NCBI GenBank assembly: GCA_943326765.2
Contig: CALPUN020000005.1
Coordinates: forward strand, 1-34,126
Direction: 5' to 3'
DNA from: Bifidobacterium breve
GTDB taxonomy: Bacteria > Bacteroidota > Bacteroidia > Flavobacteriales > Flavobacteriaceae
DNA length: 34,126 nucleotides
Shown: positions 4,097 through 33,673 of the stretch, piece after piece
How the letters are laid out: every line of letters begins with the position of its first letter
Numbering within the stretch: the first letter of the stretch is position 1
Notes under the pieces: model-generated
What the model was told of the DNA's origin: nothing
The model's input: only the letters and a program-made list of their open reading frames with translations
Database searches by the model: none
Position numbers and translations under genes: made by a program

Positions 4097-4323
4097 TTTA
4101 ATGTGCGTGTTATGGTTTCGGAATTGCATTTTTGCCCCAGATGGCAGTGGAAAACCTTTTTCTTGAAAGTGGATTTTTTCTTGAACTTAAAAAGCAACCG
4201 CAGAAGCTTTATTAATTTTTTTTAAAAAAACATTTTCAAGGAAAAGTTTGGAACGTACCGCTGGATTAAGGCCCAACAAAACTACAAAAAAAGTTTAGAT
4301 TATCGGCTCCCTTTTTTAAACAA

Positions 4324-23409: not shown

Positions 23410-23425
23410 ATACAGTTTGTAAATT

Positions 23426-23503
23426 AGCCCTGATGGTAGCGGCATCCTTTTTCTCGCTTCTTTAGCGAGGAAAAGATAGAGCGAACAGCAGGAAATAGCT
23501 TCT
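23426..23503 (+). repeat. Dispersed intergenic repeat copy B
   Basis: TAGCCCTGATGGTAGCGGCATC - hairpin CTTTTTCTCGCT/TCTTT/AGCGAGGAAAAG - GATAGAGCGAACAGCAGGAAATAGCTTCTA. Confidence 0.85.
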
Positions 23504-23520
23504 ACCAATAATTATTTTGG

Positions 23521-23528
23521 CAAAGATA
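23521..23528 (-). promoter_or_regulatory. Candidate -7 element of the gldB promoter
   Basis: Minus strand TATCTTTG matches TAnnTTTG; places repeat B inside the gldB 5' leader. Confidence 0.5.
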
Positions 23529-23557
23529 CAGTGTGGTTTATTAAATATTCAGAAATT

Positions 23558-24358
23558 ATGTCTAAAAAAAGTACTCTTGCCGTTGAAAATGCAACTACCC
23601 AAATTGTAACTTGGTTGAAAACGTATGCGGAGAACGCAAAAGTGAACGGATTTGTTGTTGGAATTTCGGGCGGTATTGATTCGGCAGTAACCTCAACACT
23701 ATGTGCGCTCACGGGTTTAAAGGTTTTGTGTTTGGAAATGCCAATTCACCAAGCCCATTCGCATGTAACACGTGGCAGGGAACATATTGATCAATTGAAA
23801 AAAAGATTTCCCAATGTGAGCTCGATTGAAGCCGATTTGACTTCGGTTTTTGAAGATTTTAAAAAGCAAGTTCCCGAAACCAATGACAACCACACCGCTC
23901 ATTTGGCGTTGGCTAATACCCGATCGCGATTGCGGATGACCACTTTGTACTATTTTGCGGGCATTCATGGTTTGTTAGTCGCTGGAACGGGGAACAAAGT
24001 GGAAGATTTTGGAGTGGGGTTTTTCACCAAATATGGCGATGGCGGGGTCGATTTGAGTCCGATTGCTGATTTAATGAAATCAGAAGTATACGCCATAGGT
24101 ATTTATTTGAATGTTCCTGAAGCAATCCTAAAAGCGGCTCCAACTGACGGTTTGTTTGGAGACGACCGAACAGATGAAGACCAGATTGGTGCCAGTTATG
24201 ACGAATTGGAATGGGCGATGTTTCGAGAGGAAGAAGGAAAGTCGGTCGCTGATTTTTCAGGTCGTGAAAAGGAAGTTTTTGAGATCTACAAACGCTTCAA
24301 TAATACTAATCAACACAAAATGAACGCGATACCGGTTTGTTTACTTCATCGGAATTAA
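23558..24358 (+). CDS. nadE: NH3-dependent NAD+ synthetase
   Basis: GFVVGISGGIDSAVTSTLCAL P-loop (SGGxDS), GTGNKVEDFGVGFFTKYGDGGVDLSPIADLMKSEVY. Start at internal Met (ORF track 23531). Confidence 0.95.
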   Translation: MSKKSTLAVENATTQIVTWLKTYAENAKVNGFVVGISGGIDSAVTSTLCALTGLKVLCLEMPIHQAHSHVTRGREHIDQLKKRFPNVSSIEADLTSVFEDFKKQVPETNDNHTAHLALANTRSRLRMTTLYYFAGIHGLLVAGTGNKVEDFGVGFFTKYGDGGVDLSPIADLMKSEVYAIGIYLNVPEAILKAAPTDGLFGDDRTDEDQIGASYDELEWAMFREEEGKSVADFSGREKEVFEIYKRFNNTNQHKMNAIPVCLLHRN

Positions 24359-24448
24359 TAGTACTTTATCTAAAAAATTTTATTCATTAAGTTTTTTTTA
24401 ACTAAATTTATAGTCTCAAATAGCAATAATTTTTAAAAATCTACTATT

Positions 24449-25078
24449 ATGATTAGAGTTTGTTTAGCCGATAATTACCCTGTTGTCCATTTTGGAGTGA
24501 AATCATATTTCAAAGACCACTCCGATATTAGCATCGTGGCTAATGTTGGAAATTTTTCGATGGTGAAAGATGTTTTGTATACTAAAGAAATTGATGTTTT
24601 GGTATTGGATTTGGATTTAGATGGATTGTCTAGTATTTACGAATTGAAAGCCGTGATAAAAAATTATTCTAAAACTAAAATTATCGTATTTAGCAGTTAC
24701 TCGGAACAGATTTATGCGCCAAATGCTATAAAAGCTGGCGTTGCTGGTTATGTTCACAAAACTGCCAAATTGGAAACGTTGGGAATTGCCATTATGAAAG
24801 TGCATCAAGGACAAACCATTTTAAATGACACTATCAAAAGAAACTTGGCTTTGATTGCCAAACAAAACAAAAGCGAACGTCTGTACCGCAAATTATCCAA
24901 TCGAGAAATTGAAGTGCTTCGTTATTTAAGTAATGGTAAAAAAAACAATGAGATTTCCGCTATTTTAGGGCTAAATGAAAAAACGATTAGCACTTACAAG
25001 TTGCGTTTGTTAACGAAGTTAGACGTGACGAACTTAGTAGATTTGGTTAATAAAGCAAAAACCTTAGAAATCGTTTAA
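24449..25078 (+). CDS. Orphan LuxR-family response regulator
   Basis: Receiver (IRVCLADNYPVVHFGVKSYF..VLVLDLDLDG..VFSSY..GYVHKTA) plus LuxR HTH (LSNREIEVLRYLSNGKKNNEISAILGLNEKTISTYKLRLLTKL); no adjacent kinase. Confidence 0.88.
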   Translation: MIRVCLADNYPVVHFGVKSYFKDHSDISIVANVGNFSMVKDVLYTKEIDVLVLDLDLDGLSSIYELKAVIKNYSKTKIIVFSSYSEQIYAPNAIKAGVAGYVHKTAKLETLGIAIMKVHQGQTILNDTIKRNLALIAKQNKSERLYRKLSNREIEVLRYLSNGKKNNEISAILGLNEKTISTYKLRLLTKLDVTNLVDLVNKAKTLEIV

Positions 25079-27051
25079 TTATAACGCGACATTACTCTTC
25101 CCAATTTTTTAGAAAACGAGTGAATTAATTTGTAGTAATCCATAGCCATTGAAAGGGGTTCCGAATTATCGGCATCGACATCAGTACTGATGGAGCCTTT
25201 TAATTCTTCAATAATTTTATCTACCAAAAACCACCTTAAGGTTAGTATGGTTTCAGAAACGTATTGTCCAATGGTGCGGTCTTTTTGTTTTACGATAATT
25301 TGCTTCGATTCCCAGTTGTGGAGCGATTGCTGTTCTTCTAACATTAAAATATCGGTAACTTCTTGAGAAAACTCAGGATCTAAATGCATCAGGTATTGTT
25401 CCATTTGAAAGGTTTCGTTTTGATTAAAATAAGCAATCAAATGGTTGTATATGGATCGAAATAAAGGATTCGCCAATTCGACTTCATCTTCTTGCAAACT
25501 CAGGAAGATGCGTTGGTAGACTTTCCATTTTTTTCTCTCAATCGTATTTTCGATTTCGCCCTCGTCGTTGGTTTTTAGGAGAACATCTTCGAATTCTTCT
25601 ACTCTATCTCCGTATAACAATAGGATTTCGATGATTTTTCGCTCCAATTCATAAAGCACATCTACTTTTTGAATGTCAATTGGATTTTCATTCTTTACTA
25701 CTTCAAAAGCTTTTTGTTCTTGCTTTACTTTTTTTCCGGCTTCGGCGTTGTCTTTTTGAATTAATTGCGCTAGAGTATTTACTAAAACTTGTTCCGAAAT
25801 ATCCATAATTCGAGAACATTCCTGAAGGTAAATTTCTCTTTTAATTCGGTCTGGAATTTTGGAAATACTCGTTACCATATCCCGAATCAAATCGGCTTTC
25901 TTTATCGGATCATTTTTAGCTTCATCCATCAAAAGCGAGGCTTTAAATTGAATAAAATCCTTGGCATTTGTTTCCAGATAAAGCACCAAGTCTTCATAAG
26001 AAGTCTTCTTGGCAAAACTATCGGGATCATCGCCTTCGGGGAATGTGCAGACTTTTACGTTCATACCTTCTTCAAGAATCAAATCAATTCCGCGGATGGA
26101 AGCCCGTAATCCGGCTGCATCACCATCGTATAAAACAGTGATGTTTTTGGTTAAGCGATTGACCAACCGAATTTGATCGGGTGTTAATGCAGTTCCTGAA
26201 GAAGCTACAACATTTTCGATTCCGGCTTGGTGAAATTGAATCACATCGGTATAGCCTTCTACCAGAAAGCAATTGTTTAGTTTAGCAATGGCTTGTTTGG
26301 CTTGAAAAATACCGTAAAGGACTTTGCTTTTGTGGTAAATATCACTTTCAGGGGAATTGAGGTATTTTGCGGCTTTCTTATCGTTGGTTAAAATTCTTCC
26401 TCCGAAACCTAATACTCTGCCCGACATGCTTTGAATAGGAAACATGACTCTACCTCGAAAGCGATCGATTAGTTTGTCTTCTTTAGCAATGGTTAATCCG
26501 GTGCTTTCTAAAAATTCTAATTTGTACCCTTTCCCTAGGGCTTCTTTAGAAAAAGCATCCCATTGTTCGGGCGAATAGCCTAATGCAAATTTCTTGATGG
26601 TTTCGTGAGTGAAACCTCGTTCTTTGAAATAGGAATAGCCAATAGCCTTTCCTTCATCGGCATTTAGTAAAATATCTTGAAAGTAATTTTTGGCGAACTC
26701 GGAGACTAAAAACATACTTTCCCGAACATCGGTATTCGCTTTTTCTTCGGCAGTTTGTTCGGTTTCTTCAATTTCGATGTTGTATTTTTTAGCCAAATAG
26801 CGGATGGCTTCGGGATAGGTAAAATGTTCGTGTTCCATCAAGAACGCTACGACATTTCCTCCTTTACCCGAACTAAAATCTTTCCAGATTTGTTTGACAG
26901 GCGACACCATGAAAGACGGAGAGCGTTCGTCGGAAAACGGGCTCAGCCCTTTAAAATTGCTCCCAGCCCTTTTTAATTGAACGAAATCGCCAATCACCTC
27001 TTCTACACGAGCGGTTTCGAAAACGGTATCTATGGTTGCTTTTGTAATCAA
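25075..27051 (-). CDS. dnaG: DNA primase
   Basis: SPFSDERSPSFMVSPVKQIWKDFSSGKGGNVVAFLMEHE, ERGFTHETIKKFALGYSP, LVEGYTDVIQFHQAGIENVVASSGTALT, YDGDAAG TOPRIM. Confidence 0.96.
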   Translation of the reverse strand: MITKATIDTVFETARVEEVIGDFVQLKRAGSNFKGLSPFSDERSPSFMVSPVKQIWKDFSSGKGGNVVAFLMEHEHFTYPEAIRYLAKKYNIEIEETEQTAEEKANTDVRESMFLVSEFAKNYFQDILLNADEGKAIGYSYFKERGFTHETIKKFALGYSPEQWDAFSKEALGKGYKLEFLESTGLTIAKEDKLIDRFRGRVMFPIQSMSGRVLGFGGRILTNDKKAAKYLNSPESDIYHKSKVLYGIFQAKQAIAKLNNCFLVEGYTDVIQFHQAGIENVVASSGTALTPDQIRLVNRLTKNITVLYDGDAAGLRASIRGIDLILEEGMNVKVCTFPEGDDPDSFAKKTSYEDLVLYLETNAKDFIQFKASLLMDEAKNDPIKKADLIRDMVTSISKIPDRIKREIYLQECSRIMDISEQVLVNTLAQLIQKDNAEAGKKVKQEQKAFEVVKNENPIDIQKVDVLYELERKIIEILLLYGDRVEEFEDVLLKTNDEGEIENTIERKKWKVYQRIFLSLQEDEVELANPLFRSIYNHLIAYFNQNETFQMEQYLMHLDPEFSQEVTDILMLEEQQSLHNWESKQIIVKQKDRTIGQYVSETILTLRWFLVDKIIEELKGSISTDVDADNSEPLSMAMDYYKLIHSFSKKLGRVMSRYN

Positions 27052-27073
27052 ACTAAGTAGGGTTAGAAAACGT

Positions 27074-27081
27074 CAAAGTTA
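27074..27081 (-). promoter_or_regulatory. Candidate -7 element of the dnaG promoter
   Basis: Minus strand TAACTTTG, 23 bp upstream of the dnaG ATG. Confidence 0.5.
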
Positions 27082-27120
27082 CAAAGTTTTGCGGATGTTT
27101 GTTGTTTGTTTTGGGTTTTT

Positions 27121-27246
27121 AGCCCTGATGGTCGCGGCAACTCCCTATTCATAGAAAACAAGGCGTCTCGCCGTAGCTTTTCTTAATCGGGTATAGAGCG
27201 GACAGTGGACCCGAGCGGAGCGAACTGACAAAATAATTAGCTTCTA
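27121..27246 (+). repeat. Dispersed intergenic repeat copy C (extended)
   Basis: TAGCCCTGATGGTCGCGGCA - hairpin with AGAAAA/TTTTCT arms and GGCGTCTCGCC tip - GTATAGAGCGGACAG - insertion - AATTAGCTTCTA. Confidence 0.85.
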
Positions 27247-27250
27247 AAAT

Positions 27251-27279
27251 AAAAAAAGTGCTTCTTTCGAAACACTTTC
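27251..27279 (-). terminator. Terminator of the ECF/OMP operon
   Basis: Minus strand GAAAGTGTTTC-GAAA-GAAGCACTTTTTTT hairpin followed by a T tract. Confidence 0.65.
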
Positions 27280-27303
27280 TCTTACTAACTACTCTAACAA
27301 AAT

Positions 27304-28365
27304 TTAGTTAAAATCTAAACGAATCCCTACAGACAAGTTGTTTTGATTGACAGCGTTGTCGGTGAATAATGGACTGATGTCGTATTTGGCATACAAACTT
27401 ATTTCTTTGTATCCGATGTAAGCACTGGCTCCATAGATCAACTCATTTACATTGAAATCGCCTTTGGTTTTTTGTTGAACGGAATTTTCGTAAATATCAT
27501 TGAATTTCAGGATTTGTTTGGATTTGATGTTGGCACCAATATAACCTCCAATTCCGAATCGAAAACTTTGATGCGTTTTAAAAATAACTTTATCGTCTTT
27601 AGTCTTTTTACCCGAGAAATCGAATTCTAAATGCACTGGAACTACTATATAAACATTTCGGAATCGGGAATCTTTTAAGTAAATTGGACTCGCAACCAAA
27701 GGAGTTTGATTTCCGGTTTCCACAAAATAGCGGTTGTTGGTTGGTCTTAAATTGTTGTACATTACAGAAAGACCGTATTTTACGTGAAGCAAATTGGCAT
27801 TTTTCAGAAGTCGGGTATTGTAAGTAAATCCCCATTCGTAAAAGTGCGAACTCCAATAGCGATAATCTGAATTTGCCGCCGCTTTGTTTGTAACTAGATT
27901 ATTAAGTCCGGCAGCTAAGACTAGTTGAGTTGTGGTTCTGCTTTCACCGTCATCCCGTTTTTTGAATCTTTTGGGGTCAAAATGAAAAGTAAAAGTGCGG
28001 GAAGAATCTTGCTCAGCGATTTTTCCATCCACTTTTTGTTGGACTAAGTCTTTCAATTCCTGTTGCACATCAGCGATTCTTGATTCGATGTTTTTAGCTC
28101 TAGTGTCCGCTAATTTTAATTTTTTCTCGTCCGCTTGAGCGGCTGTAATAGTTCCTTTTTCTAAGTCAGAGTTAACGGCTTCCACTTCTGTTTTGAGTGC
28201 GGTTTTTTCTTCTTTGGTGATGCTTTCAATTTTAGAAGCAATCATTTTTGCTTTGGATTCGAAAGTTTGCGATGCCCGTTCTCCTTTCCAGCTCGTGTCT
28301 TGGGCGAAAATTTCAGTGATGACTAAGAATAGGAATCCGGTCAGGTAAATGGTAAAATTTTTCAT
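27304..28365 (-). CDS. Secreted coiled-coil plus outer-membrane beta-barrel protein
   Basis: Signal peptide; about 90-aa Lys/Glu-rich coiled coil; then alternating beta-strand region ending ..NLSVGIRLDFN with terminal aromatic residue. Confidence 0.7.
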   Translation of the reverse strand: MKNFTIYLTGFLFLVITEIFAQDTSWKGERASQTFESKAKMIASKIESITKEEKTALKTEVEAVNSDLEKGTITAAQADEKKLKLADTRAKNIESRIADVQQELKDLVQQKVDGKIAEQDSSRTFTFHFDPKRFKKRDDGESRTTTQLVLAAGLNNLVTNKAAANSDYRYWSSHFYEWGFTYNTRLLKNANLLHVKYGLSVMYNNLRPTNNRYFVETGNQTPLVASPIYLKDSRFRNVYIVVPVHLEFDFSGKKTKDDKVIFKTHQSFRFGIGGYIGANIKSKQILKFNDIYENSVQQKTKGDFNVNELIYGASAYIGYKEISLYAKYDISPLFTDNAVNQNNLSVGIRLDFN

Positions 28366-28376
28366 GATTGTTGATT

Positions 28377-29087
28377 TTAATTTTGAATACTGGATTGTTG
28401 ATTGCGATTGGCCAAAGCCACTTTTACCGTTTTAAAATTTTTGTCGATGGTATGAATTACTTTTTCACGAAAAGAAAGGTTTAGTTCCTGATCAACTTGA
28501 GAAAGCAGGAAAGACGCACTGACTTTAATAGGGGTTGTTTGCCGTTCCTTTTGTGAAGATGAACCAATGGCTAGCTGTTCGTCAACGGAAGCCCTGGTGT
28601 TTTTATTGGGATTGTTCTGTTCTGTTTTTTGATTAATGATGGAATTGTTTGCGATTGAATTTTGATTGTTGGAATTGTTTTGAATTACAATTTCCGTTAG
28701 TGCTGTTTTATTAATTGGAAACGCCGGCACTTTTTCCGGTTTTTTTGGTTGATCATTATTTGCAACTATGGATTTTGATTTAGGAGTTGTAGAAGGCAGT
28801 TTTACAGAATCTTTTGAAATGGGCTCGTTACTAGGTTTTGTCTCTATTGCCACTGTATTTTTTTTCGCGTCTACGAGACTTTCACTTTGATAAAAAAGAA
28901 TGGTGCCCACCAGTACGAATCCTAAAAAACTAGCCGCAATGAAAAGCCAATTGTAATTTGATTTTGGCTTTTTTTCTTCAGCAATGGTAAGCATCGCATC
29001 CAAACGGTCCCAACTCATGGGCGAAGGTGTGATTTCGCGGTGTTGCAATTCGCGTTTAAAGTGTTTTTCCATTTTATTTGGTTCCAT
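28377..29087 (-). CDS. Membrane-anchored anti-sigma-factor-like protein
   Basis: Short cytoplasmic N-terminus (SPMSWDRLDAMLTIAEEKKPKSN), one TM (WLFIAASFLGFVLVGTILFY), low-complexity periplasmic region; 14-bp overlap with the upstream ECF sigma gene. Confidence 0.6.
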   Translation of the reverse strand: MEPNKMEKHFKRELQHREITPSPMSWDRLDAMLTIAEEKKPKSNYNWLFIAASFLGFVLVGTILFYQSESLVDAKKNTVAIETKPSNEPISKDSVKLPSTTPKSKSIVANNDQPKKPEKVPAFPINKTALTEIVIQNNSNNQNSIANNSIINQKTEQNNPNKNTRASVDEQLAIGSSSQKERQTTPIKVSASFLLSQVDQELNLSFREKVIHTIDKNFKTVKVALANRNQQSSIQN

Positions 29088-29634
29088 TTTGGTATCCTTT
29101 TAATCTTGTAATTTCTTGTTGCAAAAATTTTCTAGCGTGACTCAATTGAGATTTCGATGTTCCTTCGGTAACCCCTAACATGGTAGCAATTTCTTGATGT
29201 TTGTAGCCTTCAATCGCATACAAGTTGAAAATCATTTTGTAGCCATCTGGCAATGCATCAATTAAAAATTGGATTTCATCTACGTTAAAAGAGCTGTCGA
29301 TGCTATTGAATCCTTCTTCTATGAAGGTTACTTCTTCTAAAAAGCTTACTTTCTTCAGAGCTCTTATGTAGGAGATGCATTCGTTGATGATGATGCGCCG
29401 AATCCAACCTTCAAAACTTCCTTTGTGTTCAAATTTTTTCAAATTCGCAAACACTTTCATGAAAGCTGTAATCATCAAATCTTCGGCATGATGAAGATCT
29501 TTTACATATTGGCGGCATACACCTAGCATTTTAGGAGCGAATTTGTTATAAATCAATTGTTGTGCTTGTCGGTTGTTATCGACAGCCAATTGAATTATTT
29601 CATTTTCTTCTTGATGTAGGGGAATTACTTTCAA
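29074..29634 (-). CDS. ECF-type RNA polymerase sigma-70 factor
   Basis: Sigma2 (HAEDLMITAFMKVFANLKKFEHKGSFEGWIRRIIINECISYIR) and sigma4 (LPDGYKMIFNLYAIEGYKHQEIATMLGVTEGTSKSQLSHARKFL). Confidence 0.93.
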   Translation of the reverse strand: MKVIPLHQEENEIIQLAVDNNRQAQQLIYNKFAPKMLGVCRQYVKDLHHAEDLMITAFMKVFANLKKFEHKGSFEGWIRRIIINECISYIRALKKVSFLEEVTFIEEGFNSIDSSFNVDEIQFLIDALPDGYKMIFNLYAIEGYKHQEIATMLGVTEGTSKSQLSHARKFLQQEITRLKGYQNGTK

Positions 29635-29655
29635 AATAGTTTGTAAAGAGGTTCT

Positions 29656-29699
29656 ATAGTTATAGACGCAATAGTTATAAAAAGGGTTGCAACCCTTTT
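29656..29699. promoter_or_regulatory. Direct repeat plus 20-bp perfect palindrome upstream of the ECF sigma gene
   Basis: ATAGTTATA at 29656-29664 and 29671-29679, then AAAAGGGTTGCAACCCTTTT at 29680-29699. Confidence 0.5.
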
Positions 29700-29779
29700 A
29701 AATTTATTTAGAAATAAATTTAATTTTTTTTTAAAATTCTGATTTTAAAGTTTTTATGCCTTTACGTTTTTTGAAAAAA

Positions 29780-30757
29780 TTAGATTTTTCTTTCAATTAC
29801 ATAATTTACCATTAAAATTAAGGCTGATTTGTATTCAGAATCGGGGTAATTCTGCAACAATTGAAGTGCTTCTTGTTGAAAGGCAATCATTTTTTGTTCG
29901 GCGTATTGCAGCCCTTGCTTGTCTTTTACAAAAGCAATAACTTCTTTAACGCGTTTTTTATCTTTATTATAATTTTTGATAGAGTTGATTAACCAACTTT
30001 TCTCTTTAGAAGTACAATTGTTCAAGACATAAATTAAAGGCAAAGTCATTTTTTGTTCTTTAATATCAATTCCTGTTGGTTTGCCAATAGCATCTTCGGT
30101 ATAATCGAATAAATCATCTTTAATTTGAAAAGCCATTCCGATTAGTTCGCCGAATTTTCGCATGTTCTCCACTTGCCCTTCATCATCAATAACCGATTTT
30201 GCTCCCAAAGCGCAACAGGAAGCAATTAGTGTCGCTGTTTTTTTTCGAATTATTTCATAGTATATTTCTTCTACAATATCCAAACGTCGCGCTTTTTCGA
30301 TTTGCAGCAACTCGCCTTCACTCATTTCTCGAACGGCTACCGAAATAATTCGCAACAAATCAAAATCGCCATTGTCTATAGAAAGCAACAAGCCTTTCGA
30401 AAGCAAATAATCCCCAACTAAAACGGCAATTTTGTTTTTCCACAAAGCATTGATGGAGAAAAAACCACGCCTCCTATTACTGTCATCAACCACATCATCG
30501 TGGACTAACGTAGCGGTATGAATTAATTCGATTACCGAAGCACCGCGATACGTTCTCTCGTTCACCGTTCCGTTTGCCAACATTTTTGCCGTCAGAAAAA
30601 CAAACATGGGTCGCATTTGCTTTCCTTTTCTATTGACAATGTAATAGGTTATTCTATTGAGCAGCGCCACTTTTGAAGTCATCGATTCATAGAACTTTTT
30701 TTCGAAAAGTTCCATTTCAACTTGTATGGGCTGTTTTATTTGGGAAGTGATGTTCAT
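29780..30757 (-). CDS. Polyprenyl synthetase family protein
   Basis: ELIHTATLVHDDVVDDSNRRRG (first DDxxxD) and GMAFQIKDDLFDYTED (second Asp-rich motif). Confidence 0.95.
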   Translation of the reverse strand: MNITSQIKQPIQVEMELFEKKFYESMTSKVALLNRITYYIVNRKGKQMRPMFVFLTAKMLANGTVNERTYRGASVIELIHTATLVHDDVVDDSNRRRGFFSINALWKNKIAVLVGDYLLSKGLLLSIDNGDFDLLRIISVAVREMSEGELLQIEKARRLDIVEEIYYEIIRKKTATLIASCCALGAKSVIDDEGQVENMRKFGELIGMAFQIKDDLFDYTEDAIGKPTGIDIKEQKMTLPLIYVLNNCTSKEKSWLINSIKNYNKDKKRVKEVIAFVKDKQGLQYAEQKMIAFQQEALQLLQNYPDSEYKSALILMVNYVIERKI

Positions 30758-30765
30758 TACTACTT

Positions 30766-30773
30766 CAAAGATA
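30766..30773 (-). promoter_or_regulatory. Candidate -7 element of the polyprenyl synthetase gene
   Basis: Minus strand TATCTTTG only 8 bp upstream of the ATG, implying a near-leaderless mRNA. Confidence 0.45.
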
Positions 30774-30879
30774 CTTATTAAGTTTAGAGATACAAACGTT
30801 AAAATTTGTAATTTTAAAATCCGAGTTAAACTTTTCTAATACCTTTCAGTCTTAAAACAAACTTTAAAAATTACATCTT

Positions 30880-31764
30880 ATGAAAACAAGCAAAATACTA
30901 GTACTTACTTTACTTTCTGTATTGACATTCAGTTGTAGTAAAAACGAAACCGAAACACCGAAATTTAGTTCTGATGAAACTGCGGTGAATGCCAAAATAG
31001 ATCTTATGAATGAAGATGTTTCCAGTATCGTTGAAGGTTTGGAAACCGATACTTACACTAATGCTTCGAATTTCACTTCTGAAAACAACACCCCTTCCCT
31101 ATCTAAAATTACCACTTGCGGCACCATTTCAAGAGATCCCGCATTTGGAACACCACTTACTCCAGGAACCGTAGTTACTAAAACCATCGATTTTGGAACA
31201 GACGGTTGTGCTTTAGCCAATGGAAACACTGTAAAAGGAAAAATTGTCGTGACTTTTACTTACCAACCCTCTGCCACGACCCATACTATTACCTATACTT
31301 TCACTGAATTTTATCACAATGGTATTCAATACAACGGTAGCGATATAATTACAAGAGAAATGTCGGTTGGAACACAAACCTCTCCAAGTCACCCCATCGT
31401 CACTATGAATATTAATATGGCTGCAACACTTGCTGATGGCAGAGTATTAAATCGAGTTGGGGAACGGGTTCGAGAAATCATGGAAGGTTACGGCACTGCA
31501 GGATTAGAAGATAATGTGTATCAAGTAACTGGAAGTTGGACTACTACTTATCCGAATAGTACTGTTTTAAGCAGCTCCATAACTTCTCCATTAATCATCA
31601 AGATGAGTTGTTTGGATGTTCACAAACCATTACTAGTTCAAGGCGTAATAACGCACACTCGAAATGGAAGAGTTTCTACTTTAAATTATGGAGAGGGAAT
31701 TTGTGATAATTTAGCAGTATTAACCATTAATGGAATTGCTTATAACATTATCATTGGGAACTAA
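30880..31764 (+). CDS. Hypothetical lipoprotein
   Basis: MKTSKILVLTLLSVLTFSCSKNE signal peptide II/lipobox; beta-rich body with two paired Cys-containing segments (TTCGTI..DGCAL; MSCLD..GICDN). Confidence 0.75.
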   Translation: MKTSKILVLTLLSVLTFSCSKNETETPKFSSDETAVNAKIDLMNEDVSSIVEGLETDTYTNASNFTSENNTPSLSKITTCGTISRDPAFGTPLTPGTVVTKTIDFGTDGCALANGNTVKGKIVVTFTYQPSATTHTITYTFTEFYHNGIQYNGSDIITREMSVGTQTSPSHPIVTMNINMAATLADGRVLNRVGERVREIMEGYGTAGLEDNVYQVTGSWTTTYPNSTVLSSSITSPLIIKMSCLDVHKPLLVQGVITHTRNGRVSTLNYGEGICDNLAVLTINGIAYNIIIGN

Positions 31765-31780
31765 AACTCCTGAATATATT

Positions 31781-31813
31781 AAAAAAAGGTCTCGAAATTC
31801 GAGACCTTTTTTT
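31781..31813. terminator. Bidirectional terminator between the lipoprotein and rlmN genes
   Basis: AAAAAAAGGTCTCG-AAATT-CGAGACCTTTTTTT; overlaps the rlmN stop codon. Confidence 0.85.
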
Positions 31814-32852
31814 ATGCTTTATTGGCTAATTGTCCGCAGGCAGCGTCAATATCTTTACCGCGACTTCTTCGAACTTTAGCAACTATTCCGCTTGCGGCTA
31901 ATGCCTTTATATAGGCGTTGATGGATTCTTCAGATGCTTGTTGAAATTCACCATCATCAATCGGATTGTATTCGATTAAATTGACTTTACAAGGAACATA
32001 TTTACAAAATTTAACCAAGGCGTCAATCGATTCTTTAGTATCATTGATTCCTTTCCAAACGACGTATTCATAGGTGATCTTGCTTTTTGTTTTTTGATAC
32101 CAATACTGCAAGGATTCTCTCAAATCGGCAAGCGGAAAATTAGTACTAAAAGGCATAATTCTCGAGCGAATCTCATCTATTGCCGAGTGCAAGGAAACGG
32201 CCAATTTAAATTTCACTTCATCATCAGCCATCTTTTTTATCATTTTGGGAATGCCTGATGTGGATACCGTAATGCGCTTTGGCGACATCCCTAATCCTTC
32301 ATTCGAGGTAATCATGTCGATGGCTTTAATGACATTGTTGTAATTCATCAATGGCTCGCCCATTCCCATAAAAACAATGTTAGATAACGGGTGATTGTAA
32401 TACAACCTGCTTTCTTTATCAATAGCAATGACTTGGTCATAAATTTCATCCGGGTTCAAATTTCGCATCCGTTTCAGTCGGGCTGTGGCGCAAAAATTAC
32501 AATCCAAACTGCAACCCACTTGACTAGAAACACAGGCCGTAGTTCTAGTGTTGGTGGGAATTAAAACCGATTCGACTACCAACCCATCGTGCAAACGAAC
32601 CGCATTTTTAACGGTGCCGTCCTCGCTTCGTTGCATTTGATCGACCTTAATGTGGTTGATAACAAAATTTTCTTCGAGCATTGTGCGCGTTTCTTTAGAG
32701 ACATTCGTCATGTCTTCAAAATGGTGTGCTCCTTTGCTCCAAAGCCACTCATAGACTTGATTGCCCCGAAAAGCTTTGTCACTTTGAGTCACAAAAAATT
32801 CTCGTAATTGTTCTTTGGTTAGGGCACGAATGTCTTTTTTCTCGGTTTGCAT
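31812..32852 (-). CDS. rlmN: 23S rRNA (adenine(2503)-C(2))-methyltransferase, radical SAM
   Basis: SSQVGCSLDCNFCATARLKRMRNL (CxxxCxxC), FMGMGEPLMNYNNV, KRITVSTSGIPKMI. Confidence 0.96.
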   Translation of the reverse strand: MQTEKKDIRALTKEQLREFFVTQSDKAFRGNQVYEWLWSKGAHHFEDMTNVSKETRTMLEENFVINHIKVDQMQRSEDGTVKNAVRLHDGLVVESVLIPTNTRTTACVSSQVGCSLDCNFCATARLKRMRNLNPDEIYDQVIAIDKESRLYYNHPLSNIVFMGMGEPLMNYNNVIKAIDMITSNEGLGMSPKRITVSTSGIPKMIKKMADDEVKFKLAVSLHSAIDEIRSRIMPFSTNFPLADLRESLQYWYQKTKSKITYEYVVWKGINDTKESIDALVKFCKYVPCKVNLIEYNPIDDGEFQQASEESINAYIKALAASGIVAKVRRSRGKDIDAACGQLANKA

Positions 32853-32879
32853 GCTGCAAATTTAATGACAATTTGTTGA

Positions 32880-32908
32880 TTTGTTGATTTGATAATTTGA
32901 TAACTTTG
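32880..32908 (+). promoter_or_regulatory. Promoter of the O-methyltransferase gene
   Basis: TTTG (32880-32883), 17-nt spacer, TAACTTTG (32901-32908). Confidence 0.6.
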
Positions 32909-32932
32909 ACGCAAATTGAAAAAAGATACCTT

Positions 32933-33574
32933 ATGCACTTCATTTCTCAAGATTTAGAAGATTATATTGAACAACATTCGGCTGCAGAACCCGAATTGTT
33001 AGCAGCACTAAATAAGGAAACCTACCAAAAAGTTTTGTTGCCTCGAATGTTGAGTGGGCATTTTCAAGGTCGGGTTTTGAGTATGCTTTCTAAATTAATT
33101 CGACCAGTTCATATCTTAGAAATTGGAACCTATACTGGTTATGCGACGTTGTGTTTGTGTGAAGGCATACAACCCAGTGGAAGCATTCATACTATTGACA
33201 TTAAAGAAGAACTGGTTGGTTTTCAACGAAAATATTTTGACCGTTCGTCATGGGGAAATCAAATCGTACAGCATTTGGGGGAAGCTTTAACTATTATTCC
33301 GAGTTTGGATTTAAAATTCGATTTGGTTTTTATTGATGCCGACAAAGAAAATTACCTGAACTATTTTGAAATGATTTTGCCGAAAATGAATCGAGGTGGC
33401 GTTATTTTATCGGATAATGTGCTTTGGAGTGGAAAGGTTTTGGAGCCTTTACAACCGAATGATGTAAGCACTAAAATTCTAGTAGCATACAACCATCTTT
33501 TAAAAACAGATCCTCGTGTAGAAACGGTTTTACTTCCTATTCGCGATGGTTTGACCGTTAGCAGAGTGCTCTAG
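32933..33574 (+). CDS. Class I SAM-dependent O-methyltransferase
   Basis: HILEIGTYTGYATLCLCEGI, FDLVFIDADKENYLNYFEM, GGVILSDNVLWSG. Start at Met 32933, because the promoter overlaps the ORF-track start 32897. Confidence 0.92.
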   Translation: MHFISQDLEDYIEQHSAAEPELLAALNKETYQKVLLPRMLSGHFQGRVLSMLSKLIRPVHILEIGTYTGYATLCLCEGIQPSGSIHTIDIKEELVGFQRKYFDRSSWGNQIVQHLGEALTIIPSLDLKFDLVFIDADKENYLNYFEMILPKMNRGGVILSDNVLWSGKVLEPLQPNDVSTKILVAYNHLLKTDPRVETVLLPIRDGLTVSRVL

Positions 33575-33673
33575 CCCAGATGGGAGCGGCATCTCCCGGT
33601 TATAGAAAACAAGGCTTCTAGCCGTAGCTTTTCTTAAACGGGAATATAGCGGACAGCTGGAAATAGCTCCTAA
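33573..33673 (+). repeat. Dispersed intergenic repeat copy D
   Basis: TAGCCCAGATGGGAGCGGCATC - hairpin CCCGGTTATAGAAAA..GGCTTCTAGCC..TTTTCTTAAACGGG - AATATAGCGGACAGCTGGAAATAGCTCCTAA. Confidence 0.85.

Follow-up and report, generated by a model that had tools for sequence, protein, structure and literature searches.

What is the intergenic repeat that recurs, with conserved ends and a changing centre, in a 34,126-nucleotide stretch of a Flavobacterium-type genome, and is it read as RNA or as DNA? The stretch (contig C5 of a 2.4-Mb host genome in 227 contigs, 92% complete) is called the window below. Judged by their sequence, its copies are members of Flavo-1 (Rfam RF01705), an already named family that was introduced as a candidate Bacteroidetes RNA without an assigned function (Weinberg 2010), and that surveys of small RNAs (sRNAs) rank among the most abundant families (PMC9029176). 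The answer proposed here, held tentatively and with a chance somewhat short of even, is that Flavo-1 is a dispersed, non-autonomous DNA element whose + strand folds, is recognised as single-stranded DNA, and is copied or rewritten by an enzyme. That it would represent a new class of dispersed DNA element rather than an RNA gene, spread or rewritten in place by an enzyme of Flavobacteriia other than the transposases associated with repetitive extragenic palindromic (REP) elements (RAYTs), is a more doubtful proposition. Added here are a fourth copy in the window, quantitative covariation, a second subtype, evidence against readings as a RAYT-borne repeat, a terminator or an autonomous sRNA, and a case for a fold of single-stranded DNA.

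The + strand would fold as one long interrupted hairpin in which helices of exchangeable pairs alternate with fixed mismatch loops of the G-A type beneath a variable top. The consensus stem runs CC n1 G, an A-G mismatch, T n2, the GnA/GGA mismatch, n4 n5, a third mismatch loop, (A)ATC, a bulged C and TTTT; above the TTTT follow a variable upper stem, usually of 10-11 pairs, and then the loop. Arm statistics were taken from a strict parse, as a loose one had mixed in the second subtype (subtype B, below) and mis-registered copies. Across 269 copies, the variable arm pairs n1, n2, n4 and n5 are Watson-Crick in 1039 of 1076 cases, the remainder being 17 G-T, 4 A-C and 16 other combinations. Selection on structure had been proposed in a preliminary description of this DNA, and the 45 own-genome copies bear it out: 98.8% of stem cells are paired, both sides have changed in 181 cells (52 after shuffling), and covariation scores 0.658, compared with 0.209 ± 0.014 in shuffled alignments, a value that falls to 0.06-0.10 when the partner strand is slid by 1-3 columns. 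That the structure is under selection while the sequence changes is strongly supported. Because the fixed bases are the mismatches and the pairs are exchangeable, ordinary double-stranded recognition is argued against; it is the folded form that is read.

The core, described earlier as hypervariable, does change in sequence, but less randomly than that word implies, as core types recur. TCTTT pentaloops close 50 of 257 apical hairpins and GNGTT pentaloops about 30; long inserts are also found, and the long core type common to two of the window copies (C and D) occurs in genome G229 as well. At three loci (L367:2753-2841, L028:1497-1617 and L374:6519-6665), the apical loop of a Flavo-1 copy contains a different hairpin repeat, likewise widespread, or variants thereof (the CCCTGAGCGnAGTCGAAGGG type), as if the loop accepted insertions of other repeats.

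Some copies fit only the inner part of the model; their ends differ from the canonical ones and are shared among themselves. These copies (L334, L338, L325, L320, L346, L353 and others) make up what is, on the aligned sequences, a second subtype of Flavo-1, distinguished by its ends and by a three-way junction and newly described here as subtype B. Its 5' end reads GCGTnAG|GGAT and its 3' end AGCC|CG(G/A)CC..GG..n'ACGCC. The outer helix P1 covaries in 35 copies (fifth pair T-A 19, G-C 11, C-G 4; fourth pair T-A 29, C-G 4), although these counts are biased towards pairing, since the 3' strand of P1 was found via its complementarity to the 5' strand; the better evidence for P1 is the constant spacing and sequence context in the aligned rows. 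A short hairpin on the 3' side, P3, mostly C(GNA)G, completes the three-way junction. The Rfam model scores several subtype B copies above threshold via the shared hairpin, and the printed consensus structure of RF01705 has no P1/P3 junction.

The host genome contains 105 Flavo-1 matches and 14 control genomes contain none, so the repeat is not a product of chance. Copies are single and dispersed in the complete genome G202, which has 97, and their number among 40 congeners ranges from 0 (G167 and the complete genome G192) to at least 89. Flavo-1 is found in 98 of 151 Flavobacteriaceae genomes, sampled at nearly one per genus, and phylum-wide in 45 of 297, mainly in the same family and order; a pattern scan of named genomes places it in Flavobacterium, Chryseobacterium, Halpernia, Polaribacter, Algibacter and others. 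The earlier statement that such boxes are common between Flavobacterium genes was right about the wide spread, but the family already had a name. Neither a scarcity of copies, nor an absence of covariation, nor an origin by local duplication, each of which would have spoken against the preliminary description, was found. By blastn, Flavo-1 is absent from plasmids and from the INPHARED phages, and a pattern scan of IMG/VR gave 1 match in 2.9 million viral contigs. That sole match, L200:4912-5014 (IMGVR_UViG_3300032329_000153), is weak, at 20.7 bits. Around the skew-inferred origin of G202 (0.4-1.3 Mb), copy density is about twice that elsewhere.

The window holds four copies, every one on the + strand. 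Their bit scores refer to Rfam release 15, where the gathering threshold of RF01705 is 42 bits, or to R1, a covariance model built in this analysis; names of neighbouring genes were read from translations of open reading frames (ORFs).

4126-4279, + strand: copy A, with a long core, in the gap separating a yqeY-like gene from ftsZ and antisense to these two - strand genes; Rfam RF01705 48.3 bits (match 4130-4271), model R1 39.2 bits.
23425-23504, + strand: copy B, of the type with a TCTTT loop, between the divergently oriented genes gldB and nadE; Rfam 76.4 bits, E 2.3e-15, and comparison of occupied with empty sites.
27120-27246, + strand: copy C, whose core is of the GGC..GCC type, flanked by dnaG and an outer-membrane-protein-like gene, the two being on the - strand; model R1 19.7 bits, E 0.038, boxes read directly.
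27206-27235 (approximately), + strand: insert of about 30 nucleotides in the 3' arm of copy C, TGGACCCGAGCGGAGCGAACTGACAAAATA, containing a GC(GGA)GC mini-hairpin; comparison with the consensus 3' arm.
33572-33673, + strand: copy D, also with a core of the GGC..GCC type, which takes up the space between two convergent genes; Rfam 49.9 bits and ORF ends.

Copies B, C and D lie within 1-2 bases of where they had been placed before, their first TAG standing at 23425, 27120 and 33572; copy A is additional. Copies A, B and D exceed the gathering threshold of RF01705, whereas that model fails to match copy C at the curated threshold and at E values of up to 1 alike. In copy C the 5' box, the core and the 3' end can nonetheless be recognised by eye. 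Both shared boxes described earlier are present in B, C and D; the 3' box quoted there is, however, the consensus (copy B has ATAGAGCGAACAGCAGGAAATAGCTTCTA), and in copy C the insert splits the 3' arm. No second occurrence of this insert was found in the own-genome stretches examined. Copy B lies antisense inside the presumed gldB leader, between promoter and gene, and copy C lies upstream of dnaG, also antisense. The initial TAG of copy D is the stop codon of an O-methyltransferase ORF (32897-33574).

Which strand is read, and in which chemical form? The upper stem contains 84 G-T and 6 A-C pairs, an imbalance which identifies the + strand fold as the selected one. Orientation relative to genes, assigned with a simple longest-ORF gene caller, is mixed: 68 copies are tandem-antisense, 48 tandem-sense, 48 convergent and 34 divergent, with a modest excess of the convergent arrangement (48 of 198 copies against 316 of 2014 gene pairs). 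Replication does not bias the strand either, as 44 of the 97 copies in G202 lie on the leading strand. The Bacteroidetes -7 box TAnnTTTG stands upstream in the sense direction of 21 of 303 copies, fewer than at three control positions (34, 48 and 52 of 303), and a dedicated promoter was rejected on this ground, which speaks against an autonomous sRNA gene as a general explanation. Among the 257 apical hairpins, GNRA loops number 3 and UNCG loops 0, while 23 mini-hairpins have the form GY(GNA)RC, compared with 2.75 in shuffled cores, the GNA triloops coming mostly from one GC-richer genome (G202). The RNA counterpart of such a mini-hairpin is much weaker. In DNA, GNA loops closed by G-C form extraordinarily stable mini-hairpins (PMC4686876). 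Loops that are T-rich or GNA, with GNRA and UNCG scarce, fit single-stranded DNA better than RNA; together, the orientation, promoter and loop evidence suggests, from composition and not by demonstration, that the functional fold leans towards single-stranded DNA.

The Rfam view is that of a structured RNA, either an sRNA or an untranslated-region element: the + strand would be transcribed, and the folded RNA would bind a protein or act on messenger RNA. Covariation with G-U in excess of A-C is what such an RNA would display, RNA commonly contains symmetric internal loops closed by G-A, and some Flavo-1 matches in F. psychrophilum coincide with structured 5' transcripts (PMC9723704). Set against this are copies in all orientations to genes, sense promoter boxes rarer than in controls, and the near absence of GNRA and UNCG loops; the F. 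psychrophilum matches themselves lie sense or antisense to transcripts with no preference, many of them outside transcripts altogether (PMC9723704). We regard a structured RNA, one of the options of the preliminary description and still the current Rfam annotation, as rather unlikely. If Flavo-1 is RNA after all, the same alignments show which bases to mutate; if it is a DNA element, the counts of Flavo-1 in sRNA surveys are wrong, and a common flavobacterial repeat class has a mobiliser yet to be named.

For the single-stranded DNA element, the fold that matters would be that of one DNA strand, and a putative enzyme, acting in trans, would recognise the fixed mismatches and the junction and copy or rewrite the element into intergenic DNA. 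DNA rather than RNA as substrate, enzymatic copying and action in trans are what we infer. Copy positions vary between species. At the gldB-nadE site, 3 of the 30 closest congeners are occupied, 26 have short intergenic regions without the element, and 1 is ambiguous because its neighbourhood differs. Genomes G187 and G229 share 7 Flavo-1 sites, their aligned DNA being 87% identical on average. At two of these, the entire upper hairpin has been exchanged for another, equally well paired one with arms and flanks retained, and two further sites have several pair changes with compensation. The same changed core (GGTGGGGTTCACC) stands at two G187 sites, where both G229 counterparts have GCCGGGGTTCGGC; this suggests exchange between copies. 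In 90% of cases, against an expected 50%, the nearest neighbour of a copy comes from its own genome, which points to lineage-specific amplification or homogenisation, to which base composition may contribute. Of 56 alignment gaps in the G187-G229 comparison, 5 fall at copies, too few for a conclusion on rearrangement breakpoints. The subtype B junction, the copy-rich genomes free of RAYT genes and the swapped orthologous cores are concrete places to look.

Several findings weigh against this DNA element, in addition to the genome-bound origin of the GNA triloops. The G-T excess is compatible with RNA too and partly inherited within subfamilies (72 T-G against 12 G-T), and in the unbiased copies alone the arm ratio of G-T to A-C is 7 to 3, which is not significant. 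No near-identical recent copies were found in the two genomes examined, so that present-day mobility is hypothetical, and different species can retain orthologous copies at the same site, a possible sign of a host function. Target-site duplications are absent, the longest words shared by the flanks reaching 7 or more bases in 12 cases against 12.0 in shuffled pairs, and no mobilising enzyme was found in a transposase search confined to Y1_Tnp. Outer inverted repeats were likewise not found; terminal inverted repeats amount to short closing pairs (AGC/GCT; GCGTn/n'ACGC in subtype B), and the search for an autonomous partner covered Y1_Tnp alone.

The persistence of orthologous copies leads to another alternative, namely that Flavo-1 is a domesticated DNA signal: sites kept by the host for a protein that binds single strands or hairpins, at a chromosome, replication or transcription boundary, with mobility being ancient. 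In its favour, the orthologous G187 and G229 copies stay structured while their flanks diverge, the family is missing from plasmids and the phage collection and all but missing from viral contigs, and copies are denser in the origin half of G202. A range from 0 to about 100 copies within one genus, a complete genome (G192) with none, positions that differ between species and the lack of orientation relative to replication nevertheless make it improbable.

Still less probable, indeed very unlikely, is the suggestion that Flavo-1 is a REP element mobilised by a RAYT (Y1 HUH) transposase. It is a short extragenic imperfect palindrome with conserved mismatches, and its 5' foot, TAGCCnGAT, is reminiscent of the E. 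coli REP foot. No GTAG-type foot is present, though: the base before TAG is C in 57%, T in 30%, A in 8% and G in 4%. Bacteroidetes RAYTs of subclass 2.6 have been reported with atypical flanking structures (PMC6006769), and the four RAYT genes inspected are indeed flanked by other palindromes, of the CGCGGATTTGCAATCCGTG or CCGCTACCGCACGAAT types, in agreement with that report, which indicates that the atypical structures are not Flavo-1. The copy-rich genomes G202 (complete), G152, G172, G173, G187 and G188 lack Y1_Tnp genes, and the host genome, which is incomplete, yielded none either. The 30 strong Y1_Tnp loci contain one Flavo-1, and the 20 weaker RAYT-like loci 4 clear matches in 130 kb, roughly the background density. 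Over 61 genomes and 50 loci, a RAYT partnership was rejected, and with it the earlier idea of a RAYT-mobilised REP. The related idea of a classical miniature inverted-repeat transposable element is not supported, since target-site duplications were looked for and none was found. Flavobacterium RAYT-like genes have palindromes of their own, CGCGGATTTGCAATCCGTGCCC at L410 and L427 and CCGCTACCGCACGAAT/ATTCGTGCGGTAGCGG at L413 and L421.

A bidirectional transcription terminator, which a strong intergenic hairpin and the modest convergent excess might suggest, is scarcely credible and was rejected as an intrinsic terminator for want of a T-run after the hairpin (T5 in 18 of 303 copies, the - strand equivalent in 28 of 303, and an A run following on the + strand), besides which 34 copies lie between divergent genes and copy B between a promoter and gldB.

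How does Flavo-1 compare with known systems? The elements studied here agree with RF01705 in sequence, strand, stem and mismatch pattern; the difference is one of interpretation, as Rfam files an sRNA gene where the present evidence points to DNA, and of the junction missing from its model. With REP elements, or the bacterial interspersed mosaic elements built from them, and their RAYTs, Flavo-1 shares short extragenic imperfect hairpins in high copy number, the lack of a gene of its own, a folded single strand and conserved mismatches, but it is longer, lacks the GTAG foot, and RAYT genes are absent or stand beside other palindromes. The end hairpins of IS200/IS605 insertion sequences are likewise one-strand hairpins read as single-stranded DNA; Flavo-1, however, has no transposase gene between paired ends and no lagging-strand bias. 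Integron attC sites also act as a folded single DNA strand, keep structure over sequence and carry a variable top on a conserved stem, but the R/L boxes of attC (RYYYAAC/GTTRRRY) were not seen in the Flavo-1 consensus, nor was a cassette array, integrases not having been searched for. A single gene is present or absent between two Flavo-1 copies when G229 is compared with G187: at G229:C5:314102-314865, a subtype B copy and a canonical copy enclose a gene of about 600 bp, where G187 carries a single copy and lacks the gene.

Next to copy B in the window, at 23505-23535, a palindrome-like TATTTTTGCAAATATACA motif, conserved genus-wide, seems to be where the divergent gldB and nadE promoters overlap.

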